Positions 31,038 to 34,161 of a stretch of DNA of 34,161 bases are shown here, piece by piece. The stretch's first letter is position 1, and every line of letters begins with the position of its first letter. This DNA comes from Saccharomonospora azurea NA-128. GTDB lineage: Bacteria > Actinomycetota > Actinomycetes > Mycobacteriales > Pseudonocardiaceae. The translations under genes were made by a program, and so were the position numbers. Where the stretch lies: contig NZ_CM001466.1 of NCBI RefSeq assembly GCF_000231055.2, forward strand, positions 4,102,386 to 4,136,546, read 5' to 3'. The notes below the pieces were generated by a model, which was not told the DNA's origin, ran no database searches, and saw only the letters and a program-made list of their open reading frames with translations.

Positions 31038-31823
31038 TCACGTTACGGGTTTGGAGCCCGGGCCGCGCGTTCGCGAACGCCGGTTCGAGGAGGCGGCCGG
31101 TGGGCGGAACACCGCGAAGGGGTCCGTGACCCGGATGTCGCGGTGGGCGAAGCGGAACAGGGCCGCCGGGCGTCCGCCCGCACGTCCCGGTGCTGCGGTA
31201 CGGCCTGTGGGCACGAGCACTCCCCGCCGGGACAGGACGCGCTGCAGGTTGGTGGCCGAGATGGGATAGCCGAGTGCGGCGGAGTACAGGTCGCGCAGGG
31301 CCGAGATGGTGAACTGCTTGGGGGCGAGCGCGAAGCCGAGGTTGGTGTAGCTGAGTTTCGCGCGGAGCCGTTCGCGCGCCTCCAGGACGATGTCGGCGTG
31401 GTCGAACGCCGTGCGGGGCAGGTCGTCGACGTTGTGCCACGCGGTGTCCTCCGGCACCACCGGGTCGACGTCCGACGGCATGAGCCCGAGGTAGGCGGTG
31501 GCGACGACCCTCGGCCCCGGGACCCGGTTCGGCGCGCTGAAGACCCCGAGCTGCTCGACGTGCGTCAGCGTCTTGACGTCGACCTTCTCGGCCAGTTGCC
31601 GGCGGATCGACGTCTCGGTGTCCTCGTCGGGGCGCAGTCTGCCGCCGGGGAGCGACCACCGGCCGATGTGCGGATCGAGGGCACGTCGCCACAGCAGGAC
31701 ACGAAGCGTGGCCGGGTCGCTGCTGCTCGTGTAGACGCCGTGCCGTGTGGTGCAACGCACCTGAAGAACTGCGGCCAGAACCTCGTGTGCCAGGGGGGCG
31801 CTGCTGTTAATATGGGATCGCAC
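31038..31823 (-). CDS. nrtR: NrtR-type Nudix-family transcriptional regulator of NAD synthesis
   Basis: A 261-residue protein: an N-terminal Nudix-like ADP-ribose-binding domain ([30 protein letters not shown]) and a C-terminal winged helix (about 165-235, [30 protein letters not shown]). The Nudix box is degenerate: GX5E is kept, but REUxEExG reads RQLAEKVD, so hydrolysis is unlikely, as in NrtR repressors. These bind nad promoters and release DNA on binding ADP-ribose or related NAD metabolites. The start is GTG 31823, 8 nt after TATAAT (31837-31832), with the operator inside the promoter. It is divergent from nadA. Confidence 0.92.
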
Positions 31824-31863: not shown

Positions 31864-32871
31864 ATGACGGCACACGCAGACGAGCTTGCTCCGTACGACG
31901 GGGTCGTGGCGGACGCGGCCTGGGCCGAGGAGGTGCGTGAGCTCGCTCGGCAGCGCGACGCCGTCATCCTCGCGCACAACTACCAGCTCCCGGAGATCCA
32001 GGAGGTCGCCGACCACACCGGTGACTCGCTGGCGTTGAGCCGCATCGCGGCGTCCAGCGACGCCTCCACCATCGTCTTCTGCGGTGTCCACTTCATGGCC
32101 GAGACGGCGAAGATCCTCTCCCCGGAGAAGACGGTGCTCATCCCCGACGCGAGGGCGGGGTGCTCGCTGGCCGACTCCATCACGGGCGAACAGCTCCGGG
32201 AGTGGAAGGCGCGGCACCCGGGCGCCGTCGTGGTGTCCTATGTGAACACGACGGCCGAGGTGAAGGCCGAGACGGACGTCTGCTGCACGTCGTCGAATGC
32301 CGTCGACGTGGTGGCGTCGATCCCCGCCGACAAGGAGATTCTCTTCTGCCCGGACCAGTTCCTGGGCGCCCACGTCAAGCGGGTGACCGGCCGGGAGAAC
32401 CTGCACGTGTGGGCCGGTGAGTGCCATGTGCACGCGGGGATCAACGGTCCCGAGCTCGCCGAGCGGGCGGCGGCGAACCCGGACGCGGACCTGTTCATCC
32501 ACCCCGAGTGCGGGTGTGCCACCTCGGCTCTGTACCTCGCGGGGGAGGGAACGGTCGAGCCGGAGCGGGTCAAGATCCTGTCCACGGGGGACATGCTCAC
32601 GGCGGCGCGCGACACGAAGGCGACGTCGGTGCTCGTCGCCACGGAGGTCGGCATGCTGCACCAGCTCCGCAAGGCGGCGCCGGAGATCGACTTCCGGGCC
32701 GTCAACGACCGGGCGTCGTGCCGCTACATGAAGATGATCACGCTGGCGGCGTTGCTGCGGTCGCTGCGCGGAGGCGTCGACGAGGTCGACGTCGACCCGG
32801 ACGTGGCCGCCAGGGCGCGCGCCTCGGTCCGGCGGATGGTGGAGATCGGCACGCCCGGCGGTGGGGAATGA
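31864..32871 (+). CDS. nadA: Quinolinate synthase NadA
   Basis: Condenses iminoaspartate (made by NadB) with dihydroxyacetone phosphate to quinolinate, the de novo NAD precursor, using a 4Fe-4S cluster. 335 residues. The cluster-type cysteines are found in RAGCSLADS (Cys100), VWAGECHVH (Cys187) and HPECGCAT (Cys216/218). [19 protein letters not shown] and [12 protein letters not shown] are further signatures. ATG 31864 follows GGAGG (31853-31857) by 6 nt, so unlike nrtR it has a leader. It overlaps nadB by 4 nt (ATGA, 32868-32871). Confidence 0.96.
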
Positions 32872-34161
32872 CGCCCCCGGTTTCCGACCAGCAGTCGAAA
32901 ACCACGTGGGATGCGGACGCCGACGTGGTGGTGGTCGGCAGCGGGGGTCGCCGGGCTCACGGCCGCGGTGCGAGCCGTGGAACTCGGGCTGCGCACGCTG
33001 GTGGTGACCAAGGGACGGCTGCCCGACGGCAACACGCGGTGGGCGCAGGGCGGTGTGGCGGTCGTGCTGCCCGACGAGGGAGCGAGCGGGGACGACTCGC
33101 TCGACGCGCACGTGGCCGACACGCTCGCCGCCGGCGGGGGGCTCTGCGACGCCGCGGCGGTCCGCTCGATCGTCGGCGCGGGGCCCGATGCCGTGAACCG
33201 CTTGCTGCGGGGCGGTGCCCGGTTCGACTCCGACGCCTCCGGACGGCTCGCCCGCACCCGCGAGGGCGGGCACAGCGCCTTCCGGGTCATCCGGGCGGGC
33301 GGCGACGCCACGGGAGCGGAGGTGCAGCGGTGCCTGGAAGTCGCGGCCGAGGGGCTGCCCGTGCTCGAACACCACGTCGCCGTCGACGCGCTCACCACGG
33401 CGTCCGGCCAGGTGTGCGGCGTGCGCGTGCTGGCCGGACCGGACGCCACGCCCGGTGTCGTCCGGGCCCGCGCGGTCGTGCTGGCGACCGGCGGTCTCGG
33501 CCAGCTGTACCGGTCGACCTCGAATCCCGAGCAGGCCACCGGCGACGGGCTCGCGCTGGCGTTGCGAGCGGGGGCGAGCGCCGCCGACCTGGAGTTCGTG
33601 CAGTTCCACCCCACCGTGCTCTACACACCCCGGGCGAAGGGGCGGTGCCCGCTCGTCACGGAGGCGGTGCGCGGTGAGGGCGCCGTGCTGGTCGACGCCG
33701 CGGGCCGTCGGGTGATGCAGGGTGTGCACCCGCTGGGCGACCTGGCGCCGCGCGACGTCGTGTCGGCGGCGATCACGCATCGGCTCGCCTCGGCCCCCGG
33801 CGGGGTCGACGACCACGTCTACCTCGACGCCACCGGCATCGCCGGGTTCGCCGCGCGGTTCCCCACGGTGGCGGCGGCGTGCGCGGCCGCCGGGATCGAC
33901 CCGGAGCGTGACCCGATCCCGGTCGTCCCGGCCGCGCACTTCGCGTGCGGTGGCGTGGTCACCGACACCCACGGGCGCACGGACGTGCTGGGCCTGTACG
34001 CGGCGGGGGAGGTGGCGCGCACCGGACTGCACGGTGCCAACCGGCTCGCGTCGAACAGTCTGCTGGAGGGCCTTGTGATGGGCCGCCGTGCGGCCGAGGC
34101 CGTCGCCGCGGACCTGGGCGCCGGGCGGCTGCCGAGGGGCGAGGCGCGACCGGGTCCGGTT
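32868..34161 (+). pseudogene. nadB: L-aspartate oxidase NadB, interrupted by a one-base frameshift; runs off the window end
   Basis: FAD enzyme that oxidises L-aspartate to iminoaspartate for NadA. ATG 32868 overlaps the nadA stop and the frame reads VVVVGSG (Rossmann FAD motif) up to residue 26. A run of five G (32943-32947) then throws it out of frame; as written, the frame ends at 33677 with an unrelated Arg/Gly-rich tail. Removing one G restores the family sequence VAGLTAAVRAVELGLRTLVVTKG, then TRWAQGGVAVV, GGHSAFRVI, VLATGGLGQLY, FVQFHPTVL and AAHFACGGV...GLYAAGEVARTGLHGANRLASNSLLEG. That frame (from 32947) stays open to the last base, with 405 codons visible. A base-call error is as likely as a real mutation. 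nadC would be expected next. Confidence 0.9.

Follow-up and report, generated by a model that had tools for sequence, protein, structure and literature searches.

The nadB gene (aspartate oxidase) of Saccharomonospora azurea NA-128 is out of frame in the deposited sequence, at a run of five G that is one base longer than the matching stretch in relatives. The extra G most likely reflects a mistake in base calling or assembly that was left in the draft genome close to an unclosed gap; the nadA-nadB-nadC operon of the cell is probably ordinary and functional. The window, i.e. the whole stretch of DNA that was analysed (34,161 nucleotides), is exactly one contig, NZ_CM001466.1 4102386-4136546, and 100 N adjoin both of its ends. 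The features concerned are the following:

31038..31823, minus strand: NrtR-like regulator (NUDIX plus NrtR winged helix), divergent from nadA
31864..32871, plus strand: nadA, intact quinolinate synthase, whose stop overlaps the nadB start
32868..33677, plus strand: frame from the native nadB start, 26 native residues and then out-of-frame sequence to the stop (269 aa)
32911..34161, plus strand: open frame with the remainder of nadB (TIGR00551, 472 bits), running off the contig end
32943..32947, plus strand: GGGGG run, site of the nadB frame break
34161: contig end inside nadB, adjoined by 100 N (window-equivalent 34162-34261)

The native start of nadB is the ATG at 32868. The initial annotation had described five G at 32943-32947, the loss of the aspartate oxidase frame after residue 26 and about 405 further NadB codons without a stop. 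All of this is borne out: the window text reads GGGGG, the stop of the shifted frame ends at 33677, and the downstream frame stays open up to the window end. As deposited, the N-terminal GxGxxG dinucleotide motif is not in frame with the rest of the protein. At E 0.001, neither Pfam nor NCBIfam gave a match for the 269-residue out-of-frame product. The nadB match to TIGR00551 lies above the curated cut-off (471-472 bits vs 452.75) and covers only positions 10-387 of 489, and the remainder stays below the cut-off of NF005867 (573 vs 639), a model whose length exceeds that of the sequenced part. A portion of the C-terminal region is missing, within the assembly gap. We note that the five-G run is ordinary in itself, since runs of at least five G or C occur 54 times in the window by our own count; the unusual part is that the frame breaks there. 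The break is well observed, and the feature itself is probably ordinary.

The site was compared with 90 other nadB loci, 10 from genomes of the genus and 80 named ones, the latter being the best 80 of 561 confirmed matches. The stretch encoding the N-terminus is absent from two of the 90 (L058 and L089), and in all 88 loci that have it the FAD motif shares its frame with the sequence that follows. This was established for 82 loci by the frame test, for three (L121, L037 and L040) by the pattern test and for three (L056, L060 and L073) by the translations, the frame test having reached too short a way downstream in these six. The pattern test taken alone failed in 15 of 91 loci, i.e. the window's own, the two without the stretch, and 12 that were resolved by the translations or the frame test. 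It had been proposed that alignment to relatives would be informative, with a functional five-G version having a different N-terminus as one possible outcome; the relatives keep the frame, and the out-of-frame five-G form was found in none of the 88. The genus copies have four G at the site in seven of 10 cases and no run in the other three, and all 10 are in frame. Over the motif stretch the longest G run was at most three in 56 of the 76 scored loci, four in 19 and five in one. The last of these, a nadB of a Pseudonocardiales MAG (L050, 3001-4119), has its five G at the motif and remains in frame as a serine codon ends in G.

The surroundings of the run are those of a draft assembly. The scaffold carrying the window is 4,763,852 bp long, and S. 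azurea NA-128T (CM001466.1) is listed with 1 scaffold and 96 contigs (PMC7990883, Table 1). There were 31 stretches of N in the 1.2 Mb sampled, and the 26 listed ones are all exactly 100 long; given this fixed length and the 96 contigs, we regard them as ordinary assembly gaps. The distance from the GGGGG run to the 100-N gap in the same gene is 1,219 bp, and 6.5% of the sampled sequence lies equally close to a gap. The G+C content of nadB up to the gap is 76.7%, as compared with 70.2% for the 1.2 Mb sampled, where segments of 300 bases reach 77.7% at the 99th percentile and the gap flanks have a mean of 73.8% (n = 62).

Homopolymer indel errors occur in 454-era draft genomes. The present case resembles them in that a one-base change in a G run leaves the rest intact and is found near a gap in G+C-rich DNA; it differs in that such changes are rare elsewhere in the NA-128 assembly, and the likeness is one of sequence pattern. 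An indel error is favoured because the run is 1.2 kb from the 100-N gap in nadB, in G+C-rich DNA of a 96-contig draft. The preserved frame in all 88 related loci, the roughly normal selection on the remainder of nadB, the repeated failure of nadB assembly in the genus and the one other accepted break, likewise close to a gap, speak for it as well. Read support would then be expected to be poor at the run, and the raw reads would show a shorter one. Were the base an error, its importance would be confined to annotation: nadB would be mislabelled as a pseudogene, and a nicotinate requirement would be wrongly ascribed to the type strain.

The frequency of comparable changes was surveyed by comparing 1.2 Mb of S. 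azurea NA-128 with 1.2 Mb of S. cyanea NA-134, a species whose genome was sequenced by 454 plus Illumina (PMC3910552). With the S. cyanea genes as reference, the survey covered 819 genes, 838 kb of aligned sequence and 1,058 runs of at least five G or C. The choice of starts was loosened so that nadB is detected, which also admits events upstream of the real starts. Judged by eye, the nadB change is the sole pure change of G/C run length inside a coding frame among the 819 genes. With S. azurea as the target, the 819 genes yielded 37 events; 29 were free of N, and 12 of these were single indels of 1-2 bases. With S. cyanea as the target, 828 genes yielded 32 events, all 32 free of N and 18 of them single indels. 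The remaining 17 and 14 events, respectively, were listed and left out of the coding-potential scoring; most of them contain multiple indels or are situated close to the start of a gene. Pure run-length changes outside good coding sequence are found in both species, an A run in S. azurea (cy_436) and a C run in S. cyanea (own_736). These two have identical printed flanks, and the coding score upstream is negative in both.

The coding-potential rule flagged three of the 12 single indels in S. azurea (cy_373, cy_12 and cy_35) and four of the 18 in S. cyanea (own_680, own_860, own_942 and own_879). The nadB event itself narrowly escaped flagging (2.9 vs 3.1) and is counted on the alignment. Upon inspection by eye cy_373 and cy_35 were set aside, as they lie upstream of the likely start. 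In the ortholog of cy_12 a single base breaks the coding frame at a G/C run where further changes adjoin, so this is not a pure run-length change; we accept it as the one other break, a count that rests on judgement. The break, near G000:C1 4502924 (L218), falls in a gene predicted to encode an exported protein of about 1,550 residues; a gap lies 1,987 bp away, a proximity shared by 9.8% of the sampled sequence. That nadB and cy_12 are both so near to gaps (product approximately 0.006) is suggestive, the two having been picked after the fact. The S. cyanea sequence has one gap in its 1.2 Mb, and the flagged single-base breaks (4 of 18) lie far from it. We also observed that own_879 and cy_1059, the latter listed for S. 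azurea, mirror each other, and that near G001:C1 688607 (L173), far from the gap, the S. cyanea counterpart of an S. azurea gene of 308 codons has its frame broken by a single base.

Several of these results count against an error. Long G/C runs elsewhere in the assembly rarely upset the frame, and the run is 1.2 kb away from the gap rather than at its edge. Moreover, the number of single-base coding breaks is similarly small in S. cyanea, where they lie far from the gap, and at a distance from gaps S. azurea also shows larger length changes, among them a single difference of 28 bases in coding sequence at 17.4 kb and one of 145 bases at 14.2 kb from a gap. Errors at G/C runs are not general in the S. 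azurea assembly. Error and mutation cannot be told apart by the survey alone.

The genetic context of nadB is that of the nadA-nadB-nadC operon of Saccharomonospora. The S. azurea locus has the same nadA upstream with an overlapping start, an intact nadC directly downstream, and the same nadB sequence from the second Gly of the motif on; it differs in that the frame is broken at GxGxxG and a C-terminal part falls into the gap. The divergently encoded NrtR-like protein passes the Pfam cut-offs for the NrtR winged helix and the NUDIX domain, and the NCBIfam repressor model stands at 79 vs a cut-off of 400. The protein is likely to be a regulator of the NAD operon.

The variability of the nadB remainder was examined by computing dN/dS over the 404-405 codons after the run. 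The ratios of S. azurea were 0.155 to G008, 0.178 to G001 (S. cyanea) and 0.176 to G002, and those of G008 were 0.163 to G001 and 0.170 to G002. dN to G001 was 0.109 from S. azurea and 0.122 from G008, and dN to G002 was 0.117 and 0.138, respectively, i.e. the slightly higher S. azurea ratios accompany a lower dS, not a higher dN. Selection on the remainder looks about normal and no relaxed constraint is seen; therefore any real mutation would be recent, which agrees with what the initial annotation had held on this point.

Such a mutation is the alternative that we consider possible, if rather unlikely: a recent, real frameshift in the type strain, with NadB lost and nicotinate taken up and converted by PncB, as might happen during upkeep on rich medium. 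The genome does encode a PncB-type nicotinate phosphoribosyltransferase (448.7 bits vs a cut-off of 297.4), so a nadB mutant could live on nicotinate. The undamaged state of nadB as far as it is sequenced, together with the rarity of frame changes at long G/C runs elsewhere, is also in keeping with a real mutation. Also in its favour, NadX had no match in the S. azurea genome (in a search whose controls matched in 3 of 14), and there was no second NadB over the TIGR00551 cut-off. The next TIGR00551 matches, at 363 and 189 bits, fall short of the cut-off and were rejected as a second aspartate oxidase; both classes occur in all 12 genus genomes, as would be expected if they are succinate dehydrogenase/fumarate reductase flavoproteins, their probable identity. 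One partial match to 3-hydroxyanthranilate dioxygenase stayed below its cut-off (23.8 vs 25 bits, in a search whose controls matched in 0 of 14), and we did not read it as a sign of a kynurenine route. Against a real loss stand the assembly gap within the same gene and the intact nadA and nadC with the NrtR-like regulator adjacent, as expected of a working operon. The literature on Saccharomonospora with nicotinic acid contained nothing on a need for niacin by title, none was found that links S. azurea to aspartate oxidase, and the terms nadB, nicotin- and aspartate oxidase do not occur in the main text of PMC7522111, which describes SOLiD RNA-Seq of the strain (DSM 44631). A real mutation would make the type strain a niacin auxotroph; of its 11 relatives in the genus, six have an intact nadB, the other five not being judgeable from their assemblies.

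Two further explanations would leave the five-G sequence as it is and the enzyme in place. By the first of them, low but sufficient amounts of NadB would be made by slippage, either a +1 slip of a glycine tRNA or slippage of RNA polymerase, which we hold to be very improbable. The letters of the run would permit it, as five G could let a GGG-reading tRNA re-pair one base on, with native residues following. The relatives speak against slippage, given that all 88 loci with the stretch are in frame, that the run over the motif is mostly three G or shorter and that the sole locus with five G is in frame as well. Programmed +1 frameshifting was rejected on the same comparison, none of these loci having the out-of-frame arrangement. 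A DNA hairpin at the run was also considered, and nothing unusual was found: the z-score of the structure was +0.70 with DNA parameters. We give hardly any credence to the proposal that the five-G gene is real and NadB is made by the +1 event, a translational slip that would throttle de novo NAD synthesis. There is no support for phase variation at the site either, since the run is short, is one of 54 in the window and is missing from three genus copies, all 10 of which are in frame. The other explanation takes the in-frame ATG at 32911 as the start of a nadB with a different N-terminus, and the frame is indeed open from there to the contig end. The product would begin MRTPTWWWSAAGVAGL. In it the residues TWWWSAAG take the place of the strand before the motif, at the cost of the first beta strand and also of the first Gly of GxGxxG. 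Furthermore, Pfam FAD_binding_2 and TIGR00551 match only from residue 11 of the ORF, on which ground we rejected 32911 as the normal form of the gene, and the arrangement occurs in none of the 88 related loci. This start can be regarded as extremely unlikely. Of the three readings initially offered for the run, the indel error is thus the favoured one, the phase-variable or slippage site finds no support, and a true loss with salvage retains some plausibility through the presence of PncB.

An indel error in S. azurea would not be the only difficulty with this gene, as the assembly of nadB repeatedly fails in the genus Saccharomonospora. The gene is of full length and without stops in six of the 11 other genus genomes, and in four (G003, G004, G005 and G007) it is present only in pieces at 100-N gaps or contig ends; in the remaining one, G009, a NadB-type match was not found and there are only the two weaker match classes. 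These five genomes are drafts of 80 to 190 contigs with 82-91% completeness, in which other genes will be cut too. The apparent absence of nadB in the genus is therefore not to be taken as biology. The pieces correspond to the loci L124, L125, L126 and L127 in G005, G007, G003 and G004, respectively. In G005 a single scaffold carries them at distances of kilobases, which suggests that the scaffolding is at fault.
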